DNA from: Nocardiopsis metallicus
Lineage (GTDB): Bacteria; Actinomycetota; Actinomycetes; Streptosporangiales; Streptosporangiaceae
Reading direction: 5' to 3'
Assembly (NCBI RefSeq): GCF_014201115.1
Contig: NZ_JACHDO010000001.1
Location: 6,882,001-6,946,000, forward strand
Length of the DNA stretch: 64,000 nt
The position numbers were made by a program, and so were the translations under genes. Positions 19,865 through 25,808 of the stretch are shown in pieces. How positions within the stretch are numbered: position 1 is the stretch's first letter; every line of letters begins with the position of its first letter. The notes beneath the pieces are model-generated. The model searched no databases. It saw only the letters and a list, made by a program, of their open reading frames with translations, and was not told the origin of the DNA.

Positions 19865-20935
19865 TCACAGGTGTCTACCGAACTGAAGCAACATCATCCC
19901 GTACTCCCGGGCCAGGCTGGTGGTGAGCTGGTGGATGGCGTCCTCGCGTAGGTTCGCCACCCGATGGTGCACCCGGTTGCGCTCAGTATTGGCCTTGACC
20001 CACCGCCTGGACGGAGCCTGTCCGGTGCGTCGGTCAGGGCCCCGGCGGCGGGAGACCCGCCGGGAGGCCTGGCGCAGGTGCTTCAGCTCACCGTTCAGAT
20101 GACGGGGGTTGGCAACGTGCCGCACCCCGCCCTCGGAATCAGCCACCACCGCCAGGGATTTGATGCCCAGATCCACCCCGGCCACCGTCTGTGGGCGGGA
20201 CGGGGTGCGGGTGGTGCGTGCGATCTCGACCTGGAAGGAGACCTGGCACCGCCCCCGCCGATGGGAGACGGTGGCTGACAGGATTCGGGCTGTGCCGTTG
20301 GCCAGACGGCGGTGGAGCTTGCGGGTGTTCTCATGGGTGCGGATGCGCCCTACCACGGGCAGGACCACGTGGCGGCGGTCCTCCTCCAACCGGATGGCCC
20401 CGGTGGTGAACCGGCAGGCCAGTAGGGAGCGGTGCTTGGACTTACGGCGTGGTTGACCCATCCGAGGGCCCTGGCGTTCGCCCCGTTTGGACTGGGTGTA
20501 GGCGTCGAACGCCGCGGCCGCATGGGCCAGGCCGGTGTTGTAGGCCTCCTTGGAGTTGTCGGTCCACCACCCGGCGAACCTGGGGTCGGTGTGCTTGGTC
20601 GCGTTGAACGCCTTACACAGCGAGGGCAATGACCAGGACCGCCAGGGGGTGAGGGCGTCCTCGGCGATGCCGTAGGAAGTCTCAGCCTTGCGCTGCTCCC
20701 AAGAGGCGGGCACGTGGGAGATGGCCCAGTCATAGGCCGCCCGGGCGGCCCCGCAGTGCGACCTGAGCCGCTGTTCGGTTCGGGCTCCGGGGTCCAGAGC
20801 GAACACGAACGCTTGGACCACGTGCCCGGGGCGGGGCTCGAACCCCCGCTTGACCCGCTTCTTCTGCTTCTCCTCACGCTCAGGCCCGGTCTGCGGCCCG
20901 GTGTGTGGTTCGATGGCCGTGTTCACAGGGTTCAC
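19865..20935 (-). pseudogene. TnpB (IS200/IS605-type RNA-guided nuclease) truncated by the IS3 element
   Basis: The frame reads 356 codons, but its last 11 (LLQFGRHL side) come from the IS3 right end (up to 19896). The retained part has the N-terminal WED/REC-like region and the RuvC-I motif VAGVDLGIKSLAVVADS with its catalytic Asp. The alignment stops at LAREYG, directly before the place where TnpB proteins have the second catalytic Glu (ExLN), the CxxC...CxxC zinc finger and the RuvC-III Asp. All of these are missing, as is the 3' end that would encode the guide omega-RNA. The protein cannot be a working nuclease. No tnpA gene accompanies it. The missing part was not found left of the IS3 element. 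Confidence 0.85.
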
Positions 20936-21160: not shown

Positions 21161-21655
21161 CTACGGGGTGGTTCCCTGGGAGGCCTGTGACTCGCGGTCC
21201 ATCCGGTGGACGTGCAGGATCCACCACAGGCCCAGGACCGGCAGCACCAAGGGGATGAACATGTAGCCGCTGCCGAAGTTGGACCAGACGGTGTCGTCCG
21301 GGAACGCTCCGGAGGCGAACACGCTCAGCGCGCCCACCACGAGCACCCCGGCCATCTCCACGGAGACCGAGACCAGCGCCACCACCCGCGAGGTGCGTCC
21401 GGCACGGGCGAGGCCGACCGCGGCGACCAGGTAGATGATCCCGGCGAGCACGGAGAGCCCGTACGCCAGCGGGGCCTCGTCGAATCGGGTCACCAGCTGG
21501 TAGCTGCCGCGCGCGGTCGCGGCGAGCGCGAACACCGCGTAGACGGCGACCAGCAGGCGGCCCGGTCCGGTGCGCAGGGTGCGGTCGCCTGTGGGGTCGG
21601 CGGTGGACGAGTCCGCGGGGCCGGACGCCGGTGTGGACGCGGGTGTGTCAGACAA
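21161..21655 (-). CDS. Hypothetical membrane protein, 164 residues
   Basis: Starts at TTG 21655, overlapping the end of the upstream membrane gene by 8 bases, so the pair is coupled. After a Thr/Ser/Pro-rich N-terminus of about 30 residues, four hydrophobic segments follow (LLVAVYAVFALAATARGSYQ; LSVLAGIIYLVAAVGLA; VVALVSVSVEMAGVLVVGAL; MFIPLVLPVLGLWWILHV). No known domain recognised. Conservation as a pair is plausible but cannot be tested here. Confidence 0.65.
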   Translation of the reverse strand: MSDTPASTPASGPADSSTADPTGDRTLRTGPGRLLVAVYAVFALAATARGSYQLVTRFDEAPLAYGLSVLAGIIYLVAAVGLARAGRTSRVVALVSVSVEMAGVLVVGALSVFASGAFPDDTVWSNFGSGYMFIPLVLPVLGLWWILHVHRMDRESQASQGTTP

Positions 21656-22010
21656 CGGGACTCCACATCTGCTCGATGCGGACCAGCAGGACCGGGAGGA
21701 TGAGACAGGCGAAGGCGATCACGGCCGGGCCCCACTTGCTGCGCTCCATGAACCCCCACACGGCGCAGGCGGGCGGCAGCAGCGCGATGGTCGCGAGGTA
21801 GGAGACGAACATGACCGTCTCGTCGGGGCGTTCGCCGCCGACCATCGCCACGGTGATCGCACCGACCTGCCCGAGCACCAGCAGCCACAGGACACCCATG
21901 CCGATCAGGTGCGGGACGAGCATCGGCTGGTCACGGAAGGTGGAGATGAGGCACCACACGGCCATCGCCAACGACACCATCTGAATGGTCATGGTCAGCC
22001 AGTCGACCAC
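21648..22010 (-). CDS. Hypothetical membrane protein, 120 residues
   Basis: Starts at GTG 22010. About four hydrophobic segments (MVSLAMAVWCLISTF; LIGMGVLWLLVLGQVGAITVAM; MFVSYLATIALLPPACAVWGF; GPAVIAFACLILPVLLV). First gene of a two-gene unit with the 164-residue membrane protein. A partial dyad (22063-22080) and a strong palindrome (22126-22171) lie upstream. Function unknown. Confidence 0.65.
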   Translation of the reverse strand: MVDWLTMTIQMVSLAMAVWCLISTFRDQPMLVPHLIGMGVLWLLVLGQVGAITVAMVGGERPDETVMFVSYLATIALLPPACAVWGFMERSKWGPAVIAFACLILPVLLVRIEQMWSPVV

Positions 22011-22211: not shown

Positions 22212-24008
22212 TCAGCGCGGCCAGTAGAAGACGTCCGCGGTCGCCGACGTCACGTGCGCCTCCACCTCGCCGAACTGCGCCACCCGGATCCGCACCCGGC
22301 GACCGGCGGCCAGGTTGCCCTTCCACGAGTACGTGAAGTGGGCCCCGCCGCCCGCGTGCACGGGGCTGTCGAGCGGCCGGTTCCGGGCGATCCGCCAACC
22401 GCCGTCCCCGTTCGGCTCGTACTCGGTGGCCCGGATCTGCACCTCGGCGCCGGGCGTGACCCCCTCCAGGACCACCCCGACCGAGATGTCGTAGTACGCG
22501 CCGTCGGTCTCGTCGACCCCCACCAGCGAGTAGAGCTCCCCGGCCTCGCCGTCGTGCCGCCGGTCGAAGGCCAGGCTCACCCACGTACGGGGATCGAGGG
22601 CCTGGGCCCTGTCCTTCTCGAACCTGCGGTGTCGGGGCATGTCGTCTCCTTCGGTGCCGCCGGGCGGTTGGGCGAACGTGCCGTCCCGGACGAGCTGGTA
22701 GGCCCGCTCGCCCGGACAGGACGTGGCGATGAAGTCGCGGTGACCCAGGACGGTCCCGGCGATGGAGGTGTCCGGTTCCATGAGCCACTTGCGCAGCACG
22801 CGGACCGCGTTGATCTGTTCGGGTGTGATGGCGTCCGCTGGCCCGGTCGCCAGGGTGCAGGAGTAGTGCGAGGAGTTTCCGCCCGGTTGGGCGGCCTGGG
22901 CGCGGTACAGCCCGCGCCCCTCGATCACGTAGCCGTGCGCGCAGGCCATGAAGGAGTTCCCGGTGAAGTACACCGTCCCCCGCCGCCGGGCCAGCCAGGT
23001 CCCGTTCGGGGTGGTGGGGCACCAGATGTGCCCGCCGTAGGTCTCCTCGCGCCGGTTCAGCCCGCCGGGGCCGATCGGAAGCAGCTGGTGCCGGTCGAAG
23101 GCCACGGACCAGCCGCCGCCCCGGTCCGTGCCCGGGTCCGCGCGCAGGTGGACGGGCTTTCCCGCCAGTACGGCGGCGAACTGGAGGGCTTCGGCCGAGC
23201 CGCGGCTCAGCCCTTCGCGTGCTCCGTCCGCCGCGAACTCCCCGAGGAGCAGCCGGAGCTGCGGCGCGGTGAGGGAACGCAGGAAGGCATGGCTAGGCAC
23301 CCCGCCCGGGGCGTGTTCGCGCAGCCGGGGTCCCATGGCCGCACGGGCGGACCAGGTGCGGGCCACCTCCGTGACCATCGCGTCCGGCCACTTGGGCTCG
23401 TTCGGCAGGTGGTCGCAGGGTGCGGCGACACGGATCCGGTCCCGGTCGGTGAGCGACGCGGTGGTCGCCCAGTGCTCCCCGGAAACCCAGTGCTCCCCGG
23501 GAACCCGGCGTTCTCCGCGAACCCGGTGTTCTCCGGTGCTGAGCCCCGTGTGCGTGCTGCGGCCCGTGCGCTCCACGGGCCAGCGGTGGTTCGCGGTGGT
23601 CAGCGAGGAATGGGAGCGGCCCGCCATGCGGATCAGGGTGCGTTCGGTGGCAGGGAAGACGTTGACCGCCTGCACCGGCTGCCACCGGGACGTTCCGGAG
23701 CCGTGGTCGAGGGTGAGGACGGTGTCGCCCGCGCGGAGCTCGCGGAAGGAGCGCCAGCCGTCCTCGGTGAGGACTTCCGTCTCCTCGTCCGCGCAGTACC
23801 CGATGTCCGCCCAGCCACGGGAGGGGCCGGTGTGGAAGTTGCGGGTGTTGCGCCAGTAGGTGAGGCAGGCGGAGTGGTCCTTGCCGGCGAGGCCCTGGTT
23901 CACGCTGTCGTAGTGGATCACGAGACCGGAGCGGGGGTTGGCTCGGGAGGCTGGGGAGGTGCCCCAGCCCAGGTCGGACCTGGACACGTACTTGCTCGGT
24001 CGAGGCAT
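22212..24008 (-). CDS. Peptidoglycan amidase (PGRP/amidase_2) containing an in-frame intein
   Basis: 598 codons from ATG 24008. The precursor is an N-acetylmuramoyl-L-alanine amidase split by an intein. N-extein (1-71) has LVIHYDS with the first zinc His and ends GWADIGY; C-extein (352-598) resumes SFMACAHGYVIEGRGL, then GHRDFIATSCPG with the second His and the Cys ligand. Joined, they read GWADIGY-SFMACAHGYVIEG, a normal PGRP active-site segment. Residues 72-351 form the intein (see separate entry). The C-terminal 130 residues of the host protein (from about WVSLAFDRRH to DVFYWPR) look like a beta-rich wall-binding or capping domain. The spliced enzyme would have 318 residues and resembles phage-type endolysins. 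No signal peptide. The unit ends in a 46-bp palindrome and is divergent from the NAD(P)HX repair gene (299-bp gap, no other gene seen). Confidence 0.85.
   Translation of the reverse strand: MPRPSKYVSRSDLGWGTSPASRANPRSGLVIHYDSVNQGLAGKDHSACLTYWRNTRNFHTGPSRGWADIGYCADEETEVLTEDGWRSFRELRAGDTVLTLDHGSGTSRWQPVQAVNVFPATERTLIRMAGRSHSSLTTANHRWPVERTGRSTHTGLSTGEHRVRGERRVPGEHWVSGEHWATTASLTDRDRIRVAAPCDHLPNEPKWPDAMVTEVARTWSARAAMGPRLREHAPGGVPSHAFLRSLTAPQLRLLLGEFAADGAREGLSRGSAEALQFAAVLAGKPVHLRADPGTDRGGGWSVAFDRHQLLPIGPGGLNRREETYGGHIWCPTTPNGTWLARRRGTVYFTGNSFMACAHGYVIEGRGLYRAQAAQPGGNSSHYSCTLATGPADAITPEQINAVRVLRKWLMEPDTSIAGTVLGHRDFIATSCPGERAYQLVRDGTFAQPPGGTEGDDMPRHRRFEKDRAQALDPRTWVSLAFDRRHDGEAGELYSLVGVDETDGAYYDISVGVVLEGVTPGAEVQIRATEYEPNGDGGWRIARNRPLDSPVHAGGGAHFTYSWKGNLAAGRRVRIRVAQFGEVEAHVTSATADVFYWPR
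22956..23795 (-). mobile_element. Intein of 280 residues inside the amidase
   Basis: Minus-strand codons 72-351 of the amidase. Block A: Cys1 in CADEETEVLTEDGWRSFREL, then GDTVLTLD. Block B: TANH (T67, H70), the TxxH motif. Block F/G: NGTWLARRRGTVYFTGN ending in Asn280, followed by Ser+1 of the C-extein. The residue before the terminal Asn is Gly rather than His, as in some inteins. The central 130 residues hold LRLLLGEFAADG and ALQFAAVLAGKP, faintly like a LAGLIDADG homing endonuclease, probably degenerate. Residues near 88-108 are built from 6-residue repeats (GEHxVxGE). Cys1, TxxH, Asn and Ser+1 predict that splicing works. Confidence 0.85.
23470..23538. repeat. 18-bp tandem repeat within the intein
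   Basis: Units CAGTGCTCCCCGGAAACC (23470-23487), CAGTGCTCCCCGGGAACC (23488-23505), a diverged copy at 23506-23523 and a partial one from 23524. Because the period is a multiple of three it adds the 6-residue unit GEHWVS/GEHRVR without breaking the frame. Confidence 0.75.
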
Positions 24009-24308: not shown

Positions 24309-25808
24309 GTGCGCTCCGCCCACGTCGTCAGTGTCGTCCGCGAGGCCGAACAGGCCCTCATGGACCGACTCCCCGAAGGCGCGCTCATGCGCCGCGCCGC
24401 CACCGGCCTGGCCGTCCACTGCGCCCGCATGCTGCCCCGTGTGTACGGCTCCCGCGTCACCCTGATGGTCGGCGGCGGCGACAACGGCGGCGACGCGCTC
24501 TACGCCGGAGCGCGCCTGGCCGCGCGCGGTGCCTTCGTGCGTGCGGTGCTCGCCGGGAAACGCGTCCACCCGGGCGGGCTGGCGGCGCTGCGGTCCGCGG
24601 GCGGCCGGGTGATCAAGGGGGATGAAGGGGCTGAGGGAGCCGAAGGGGTGGAGTCGGCGCTCTTCGACACCGACCTCATCGTCGACGGCCTGCTCGGCAT
24701 CGGCGGACGCGGCGGGCTCCGTGAACCCTTCGCCGCGCTCGCCGCCCTCGCCTCGAACTCACCCGCCCCGGTGGTCGCGGTCGACCTCCCCAGCGGGGTG
24801 GACGCCGACACCGGCGAGGTCGCCGGGCACGCGGTCCGCGCGGACGCCACGGTCACCTTCGGCACCTACAAACCCGGGCTGTTCGTCGACCCGGGGGCCG
24901 AGCGGGCCGGGCGGTTGCACTTCGTGGACATCGGACTGGGCCCGGAGCTGCCCGGCGCCGACCTCCTCTGTCCACAGGCTGTGGACATCGCGCGGCTCCT
25001 GCCCGCCCCCGGGGCCGAGTCCGACAAGTACCGCCGGGGCCTGCTCGCCGTGCGCGCCGGGTCCGACCAGTACCGGGGCGCCGCCGTCCTGTGCGTGGGC
25101 GGCGCGCTCCGGACGGGAGTCGGGATGGTCCGCTACGGGGGCGGGGAAGGAGTCCTCGCGCAGGTGCTCGCGCGCTGGCCGGAGACGGTCGGGCTGCACC
25201 TGGACCCGCTGGACGGCACGGACCCGGGGCCGGGCCGGGTCTCGGCGGTGGTGGTCGGATCGGGTCGCGGCACGCAGCCCGCCAACGCGGACGAGCTGCG
25301 CGCGCTGCTGGAGAGCGACCGCCCGATGCTGCTCGACGCCGACGCGCTCACCCTGGTGGCGGGCAGCGACCCCCTCGCCGGACTGGTGCGCCGACGGGAG
25401 GCGCACACGCTGCTCACCCCGCACGCGGGGGAGCTGTCCCGGCTGCTCCCGGATACCGACCGCGCCGAAATCGAGGCGCACCGGCTCGAACACGCCGTCC
25501 GCGCGGCGAAGCTGTACCGGTCGACGGTGCTGCTCAAGGGCTCGACGACGGTGATCGCGCACCCCGGGGCCCCGACGGTGGTCAACCCGACCGGAACGCC
25601 ACTGCTGGCCACCGCGGGTTCGGGCGACGTGCTGTCCGGGGCGGCCGGGGCGCTGCTGGCGGCCGGTCTGCCCGCCCAGGACGCCGCGATGTGCGCCGCC
25701 TACCTGCACGGCCGGGCGGCCGAGCTGGCCCGGGACGGCGCGCCGATCAGCGCCTCTGACCTGCTGGAGGGCCTGCCGCTGGCGATCGCCGAGCTCGGGA
25801 CGCGGTGA
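24309..25808 (+). CDS. nnr: Bifunctional NAD(P)H-hydrate epimerase / ADP-dependent dehydratase
   Basis: 499 residues from GTG 24309 with GGAGG five bases upstream. The N-terminal YjeF_N epimerase domain (about 1-210) has MVGGGDNGGDAL and VDLPSGVDADTG; it interconverts R- and S-NAD(P)HX. The C-terminal YjeF_C/CARKD domain (about 225-495) has PMLLDADALTL, LLTPHAGELSRLL and the nucleotide-binding NPTGTPLLATAGSGDVLSG; it dehydrates S-NAD(P)HX using ADP. Together they repair damaged nicotinamide cofactors in the cytosol. Full length for the fused bacterial form. Confidence 0.92.
   Translation: MRSAHVVSVVREAEQALMDRLPEGALMRRAATGLAVHCARMLPRVYGSRVTLMVGGGDNGGDALYAGARLAARGAFVRAVLAGKRVHPGGLAALRSAGGRVIKGDEGAEGAEGVESALFDTDLIVDGLLGIGGRGGLREPFAALAALASNSPAPVVAVDLPSGVDADTGEVAGHAVRADATVTFGTYKPGLFVDPGAERAGRLHFVDIGLGPELPGADLLCPQAVDIARLLPAPGAESDKYRRGLLAVRAGSDQYRGAAVLCVGGALRTGVGMVRYGGGEGVLAQVLARWPETVGLHLDPLDGTDPGPGRVSAVVVGSGRGTQPANADELRALLESDRPMLLDADALTLVAGSDPLAGLVRRREAHTLLTPHAGELSRLLPDTDRAEIEAHRLEHAVRAAKLYRSTVLLKGSTTVIAHPGAPTVVNPTGTPLLATAGSGDVLSGAAGALLAAGLPAQDAAMCAAYLHGRAAELARDGAPISASDLLEGLPLAIAELGTR

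Follow-up and report, generated by a model that had tools for sequence, protein, structure and literature searches.

Why should the active-site motif of a cell-wall amidase hold an in-frame insert of 280 residues with the marks of an intein? Inteins usually reside in replication, recombination and packaging proteins, and the question is raised by a 598-residue amidase precursor encoded on the minus strand (22212..24008) of a 64,000-nucleotide stretch of Nocardiopsis metallicus DNA (hereafter the window, to whose positions all coordinates refer; every part of the gene lies on the same strand). The original prediction, made from the sequence alone, proposed that an intein splits the amidase and that its splicing could gate a potentially lytic enzyme. 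Comparison with relatives and structure prediction lead us to consider it very likely that the insert is a splicing-competent intein of a phage-associated lineage, placed after the presumed catalytic tyrosine of a fixed, chromosomal, endolysin-like amidase, and that it spread by homing and has since shrunk; a role as a gate on lysis is not favoured.

A probable intein within an endolysin-like amidase

The precursor starts with an ATG at 24008 (MPRPSKYV...); its frame stays open upstream to 24053, but most relatives share MPRPSKYV, or a near variant of it, as their start. Residues 1–71 and 352 onward match peptidoglycan amidases, and residues 72–351 are an in-frame insert. Empty homologues, alignment and predicted fold delimit the N-extein (23796..24008), which carries His32 and ends in GWADIGY (Tyr71); alignments, predicted fold and relatives with an empty site delimit the intein (22956..23795). 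The latter opens with CADEETEVLTEDGW, Cys1 (23793..23795) being placed by alignments and profile matches, contains TANHRW and closes with WCPTTPNGTWLARRRGTVYFTGN; the next residue in the alignment, Ser+1 (22953..22955), opens the C-extein, whose amidase part (22674..22955; alignment and predicted fold) includes GHRD (His423) and TSCPG (Cys431). The frame, the insert, Cys1, the TxxH block (TANH, including intein residue His70), the terminal TGN and the serine after it all lie where they had been predicted.

In empty relatives the exteins run from residues 1–71 straight to 350 onward, an unbroken junction reading, for example, WADIGYSWMACPH (L017/L048). Where homologues were examined in detail, the exteins are either contiguous or interrupted at exactly the same place by an insert of 258–373 residues, the span of inteins in the genus. 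These contiguous homologues rule out a conserved amidase domain as the identity of the insert. A single PGRP fold is predicted for the N- and C-exteins together, in keeping with the claim that the flanks join into a normal amidase, which after splicing would have 318 residues (598 − 280). The insert itself has a predicted HINT fold, and this support is strong where the sequence profiles are weak; a wider profile, built from an alignment of related inteins (A2, below), did better than the standard ones, reaching a RecA mini-intein at E 1.4e-5 and AceL NrdHF at 3.5e-4. Continuous homologues, blocks A, B, F and G, a nucleophilic +1 residue and the predicted HINT fold together point to an intein, very probably an active one, inside an endolysin-like amidase.

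The host can be placed among PGRP/Amidase_2 enzymes by its predicted fold and by residues of the zinc-site type (His, His, Cys) together with Tyr, whose roles in such sites we take to be the familiar ones; His32, His423 and Cys431 are invariant in 57/57 aligned precursors. When the empty orthologue is aligned across the site, Tyr71 falls on the tyrosine of the PGRP-LB DIGYS motif, which we take to be catalytic, and structures of the PGRP-LB Y78F mutant are among the fold matches. Since the insertion follows directly on Tyr71, the unspliced enzyme is probably inactive, and the placement of the intein in the active-site motif agrees with what had been proposed. Known amidases of this type (PGRP-LB, and endolysins such as LysCS and that of Thermobifida phage P1312) resemble the joined exteins in fold and catalytic-type residues but lack the insert; over 93% of the empty orthologue, the uninterrupted P1312 endolysin shares 69.5% identity with it.

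A class 3 signature with a class 1 nucleophile

Which route would splicing take? Position names and the features of class 3 inteins, namely the Trp-Cys-Thr (WCT) triad and Ser or Thr at +1, were taken from the relevant passages of PMC5222942. Applied to the insert, they give His B:10 (His70) and Trp B:12 (Trp72), with Arg71 between them (23580..23588); Cys F:4 (Cys259; 23019..23021, located by alignment); Thr G:5 (Thr278) and Asn G:7 (Asn280), aligned on either side of a penultimate Gly279 (22956..22964); and Ser+1. Cys259, the candidate class 3 branch point, stands 21 residues ahead of Asn280, the same spacing as in Msm and Mle DnaB.

These positions are highly conserved. C1, T67, H70, W72, C259, T278, G279 and N280 are invariant in 28 aligned inteins of the genus, and Cys1, His, Trp, block F Cys, Thr, Gly and Asn are each present in 57/57 aligned precursors (A3), where the +1 residue is Ser in 43 and Thr in 14; by alignment column, the block B Trp is found in 57/57 rows of A3 and 87/90 of A2. 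Of 101 candidate inteins, 90 entered A2, and of 64 candidate precursors, 57 entered A3 (all but L008, L025, L028, L050, L087, L103 and L112); the others were taken out manually, either because they were near-copies or for convenience, and duplicate loci from one genome were likewise removed by hand before the wider alignments. Because the rows of A1, A2 and a 63-intein set were chosen by patterns that require an initial Cys and a final TGN, more weight attaches to the unfiltered profile matches in amidase context, in all 113 of which a Cys stands first and another lies 21 residues ahead of Asn; Cys1 was not required for this count, which includes near-copies and repeats of one genome and locates the end by TGN. 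A viral set of 80 loci, fetched by HRW or TGN patterns with neither Cys1 nor the block F Cys required, yielded 73 full-length frames, in which Cys1 is present in 71, the block F Cys in 68, Trp in 72 and Thr in 69. Eight of its rows are odd, through misread boundaries (L130, L231, L251), one-residue length changes (L135, L259), an unread start (L209) or Ser in place of Thr (L256, L257); the two outside the Cys1 count are L135, where the Cys is shifted by one residue, and L209. Judged from these sequences, the two cysteines appear to be nearly fixed in the sampled lineage.

By its motifs, the window intein thus combines a class 3 signature with a class 1 nucleophile. The class 3 triad and a Ser/Thr +1 residue are present; passages of PMC5050341 and PMC7891396 define class 3 by the lack of a nucleophile at position 1, and the presence of Cys1 throughout means that we do not file the intein as a strict class 3 member, while the Cys, Ser or Thr expected at position 1 of a class 1 intein is there. 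The 1701 class 3 inteins described in section 6 of PMC7891396 were chosen by the lack of Cys at position 1, so that inteins like this one are excluded from that set. Class 3 (WCT) inteins such as Msm, Mle and Mch DnaB, those of phages Bethlehem and Catera, and AceL NrdHF differ from the window copy in its Cys1, its wall-amidase host and its penultimate Gly, most of them having the usual His. According to section 12 of PMC5050341, a phage intein with penultimate Gly, treated there as class 1, splices completely, and changing this Gly to His slows the reaction.

That precedent, together with the constancy of Cys1 in both the amidase-context and the viral sets, where an unused residue would be expected to vary, makes a class 1 intein a possible, if rather doubtful, alternative; Cys1 would then make the first thioester, and Trp, the block F Cys and Thr would be structural look-alikes. 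It has to contend with a full WCT triad at class 3 spacing and with Ser or Thr, rather than Cys, at +1, which PMC5222942 lists as class 3 features. Tori and Perler (2011) are reported to have tested inteins that join a WCT triad to a nucleophilic first residue.

The same locus with and without the intein

An amidase match was found in all 40 genomes of the genus set (Nocardiopsis, with Streptomonospora nanhaiensis and Glycomyces fuscus included, and the genome of the window itself counted); the intein is present in 28 and absent from 12. The locus is flanked by an NAD(P)H-hydrate dehydratase/epimerase gene (24309..25808, plus strand), recognized by domain match and synteny, and on the opposite side by a small conserved gene (21648..22010, minus strand), recognized by synteny and without a Pfam match. 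Counted by genome, and with short-flank loci outside the count, the two flanks accompany an amidase with the intein in 16 genomes and an unbroken amidase in 7. That the flanks are the same in both cases indicates a settled chromosomal gene, occupied by the intein in some genomes and empty in others; given these shared neighbours and no holin match, the reading of the window amidase as a prophage gene is rejected.

Elsewhere in the same genome, a second amidase carries at the same site an endonuclease-sized intein of 371 residues (L047 6990-9113; C1:4695136-4696767), and the splicing domains of the two are only 66% alike, which rules out recent copying between them. A DnaG intein of 313 residues (L001; C1:304698-308492) has Cys1, HRW, the block F Cys, TGN and Cys+1; by eye it shares Cys1, TPEHRW, the block F Cys and TGN with the window copy, from which it differs in its primase host, its Cys+1 and its match to LAGLIDADG_3. 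At one N. alkaliphila locus (L008 1501-3427), the amidase N-extein is out of frame with the remainder of the gene, through either a frameshift or a sequencing error.

Spread of the allele and its phage relatives

Of the family's 298 genomes, 63 give a strong intein match (E below 1e-40) and 9 more a weak one, and amidases with an intein at the same site are found in Nocardiopsis, Streptomonospora, Thermobifida, Nonomuraea, Herbidospora and others; a related intein in Herbidospora solisilvae (L106 5680-8847) occupies a C-5 cytosine methylase, not an amidase. Matches were obtained in 48 of 394 genomes sampled across the class (own genus and family included), and the 11 outside the family matched the extein parts only; a Kitasatospora locus from another collection (L100) does carry the intein. 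Eight plasmid records gave matches, all of them spanning less than 80% of the precursor. By elimination, the T. fusca amidase intein (L068) is possibly InBase Tfu2914, reportedly a WCT intein whose first residue is a nucleophile; if so, the allele is already known to specialists. The other T. fusca intein matches seen lie in one RecA-like frame (named by eye) with two inteins, and others may be missed, as the Pfam model used misses the amidase intein.

On an extein tree of 83 rows and 173 columns, the distribution of the intein requires 14 changes of state, compared with an average of 18 for shuffled labels. The intein tree departs from the extein tree at some points: L009 and L018, grouped by their exteins (93% identical, 15% four-fold differences), have inteins in separate, well-supported clades (75% identical, 28% four-fold differences). 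Exteins of T. fusca and two Herbidospora are 36–38% identical and their splicing domains 73%, and a viral metagenome contig (L112) compares with the same two Herbidospora at 37–40% and 74–75%. The reverse pattern is met within the genus, where L003 and L013, the extreme of 1035 pairs, have exteins 85% and splicing domains 58% identical. Lineage-specific differences in constraint could contribute to such mismatches, but transfer of the intein would account most simply for both directions.

Among 50,697 phage records, the intein has matches in 120 at an E-value of at most 0.1; the best of the matches listed are portal and terminase proteins of Gordonia phages and one hypothetical protein of a mycobacteriophage, followed by methylases and DNA polymerases. 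The portal-protein intein of Gordonia phage Woes (KU998240, gene 8, annotated 'contains intein') is 39.5% identical to the window intein over 94% of the latter's length, though in a portal host. Two intein-bearing amidases have the context of a phage endolysin, beside a holin in a lysis module: in L112 (1575-3994), a holin-family frame overlaps the amidase by four bases and helix-turn-helix frames lie downstream, and in the prophage-like Kitasatospora L100 (3059-7680), the amidase follows frames that match a virion structural and a holin family. The window copy lacks this context: nothing beside it matches the L112 holin, the sequence just upstream holds no hydrophobic frame, and its conserved neighbours are other genes. 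A frame resembling the L112 holin also accompanies an empty amidase (L046).

A probable remnant of an endonuclease region

The 371-residue class of inteins holds stretches such as LVELVAWFWTEGHI and LELFIEASLLADGHN, which are LAGLIDADG-like by eye. The window copy lacks the first of them, and what appears by comparison and fold to be the remnant of a LAGLIDADG-like endonuclease region spans approximately 23090..23400; profile comparison with the LAGLIDADG_3-matching DnaG intein aligns the second stretch (probability 94%), and the predicted fold of the window intein also matches endonuclease inteins. Among 12 pairs chosen by hand from the 351 possible among 27 genes, the ratio of nonsynonymous to synonymous substitution rates (dN/dS) is higher in the middle region than in the extein in all 12 (0.24–1.01 vs 0–0.36). 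Patchy distribution, partial incongruence with the tree and a relaxed middle region form the pattern of a selfish element.

It is against this pattern that the proposed gate on lysis, with the intein kept as a control on amidase activity, has to be weighed. The insertion adjoins the presumed catalytic tyrosine, and the amidase shows constraint while carrying the intein; PMC6195587 describes DnaB inteins whose splicing responds to the environment, and two clostridial endolysins have, according to PMC4110038, a built-in autoproteolytic trigger of a different kind. Yet the amidase at the same locus is uninterrupted in 7 genomes, so that a gate is unnecessary there, and the intein is patchily distributed, variable in length and relaxed in its middle. 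We regard the gate as unlikely, and this part of the original prediction is not supported.

The reduced endonuclease region would also suit a degenerate, inactive intein in a dead gene, and the second intein-bearing amidase and further amidase matches in the genome could make one copy dispensable. This appears still less probable, as the splicing and amidase catalytic residues are intact and the extein, compared with that of the sister genome (L003), has a dN/dS of 0.19. The insert could also be a Hint-like or autoprocessing domain that cleaves without splicing and frees two amidase fragments; this would fit its best sequence-profile matches (Hint_2 and PT-HINT) but is very improbable given a complete block G, Asn followed by Ser or Thr at +1 in 57/57, exteins predicted to form one PGRP fold, and contiguous empty homologues.

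Proposed mechanism

For a splicing-competent intein spread by homing, we propose that the precursor is translated whole and that the intein would fold and excise itself, joining GWADIGY to SFMACAHGYVIEG to give an active amidase. The most likely first step would be attack of the block F Cys259 on the Tyr71 bond in the manner of class 3, after which Ser+1 would receive the acyl group and Asn280 would cyclise, with Gly standing where the penultimate His is usual; the retained Cys1 may either assist or be able to start the reaction itself. The element would have spread through homing by its LAGLIDADG-like endonuclease, the window copy having since lost much of that domain and persisting because only splicing restores the enzyme.

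Several observations weigh against this reading. We infer splicing of the precursor from anatomy, motifs and predicted folds, and profiles alone are weak: Hint_2 matches the precursor at E 5.6e-4, under its curated cut-off, Intein_splicing is not listed even at E 10, and Pfam, NCBIfam and PDB sequence searches gave weak intein matches or none. The class 1 route stays open, as Cys1 leaves it available and the class 3 set published in PMC7891396 is, in the section cited, defined without Cys1. LAGLIDADG_3 is matched by 9 of 90 relatives, and by neither the window copy nor L047; the N-terminal splicing block (dN/dS 0.10–0.56) lies below the middle region in only 9 of the 12 pairs, and the last 40 residues give noisy values (0.14–1.15 over 37–40 codons). 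Intein presence is also somewhat clustered on the extein tree, 5 of 500 shuffles scoring as low, and only 5 of the 14 changes are required by strongly supported branches (18 of 79 inner ones); vertical descent may accordingly account for some of the spread.

Other features of the window

Within the intein, two short 18-bp tandem repeats of 2.2 copies each (23468..23535) look like a local expansion; the window intein exceeds that of the sister gene (L003) by 12 residues. Residues 454–598 of the precursor form a C-terminal domain of unassigned type (22215..22649) without a Pfam match. This domain recurs in the genus as separate frames, sometimes adjoining the amidase (for example, G000:C1:3089426-3089863). 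The window also holds a 356-residue frame of a TnpB-type RNA-guided nuclease (19865-20935, minus strand), which matches positions 2–295 of a 431-position IS607 TnpB model and thus lacks about the last third.

Significance

Among 224 mycobacteriophage endolysins surveyed in PMC3314691, none is reported to contain an intein, and an intein in an endolysin or amidase is not reported in the intein passages of the open-licence papers examined, in line with the view that the host is unusual. Of the original interpretation, the intein, the amidase exteins and the unusual host stand; it did not note that a WCT triad accompanies Cys1, that the penultimate residue is Gly, that there is an apparent endonuclease remnant or that the allele has spread through the family.

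In summary, the insert is a known kind of element with an unusual host and an unusual mix of motifs. Its empty, full-length and shrunken alleles, side by side, offer a ready system in which to follow homing, decay and loss, and, with Cys1 and a block F Cys in one intein, the question of how class 3 splicing arose becomes open to direct test. The intein-bearing amidases of two phage-like lysis modules, in turn, pose the question of how the speed of splicing relates to the timing of lysis.
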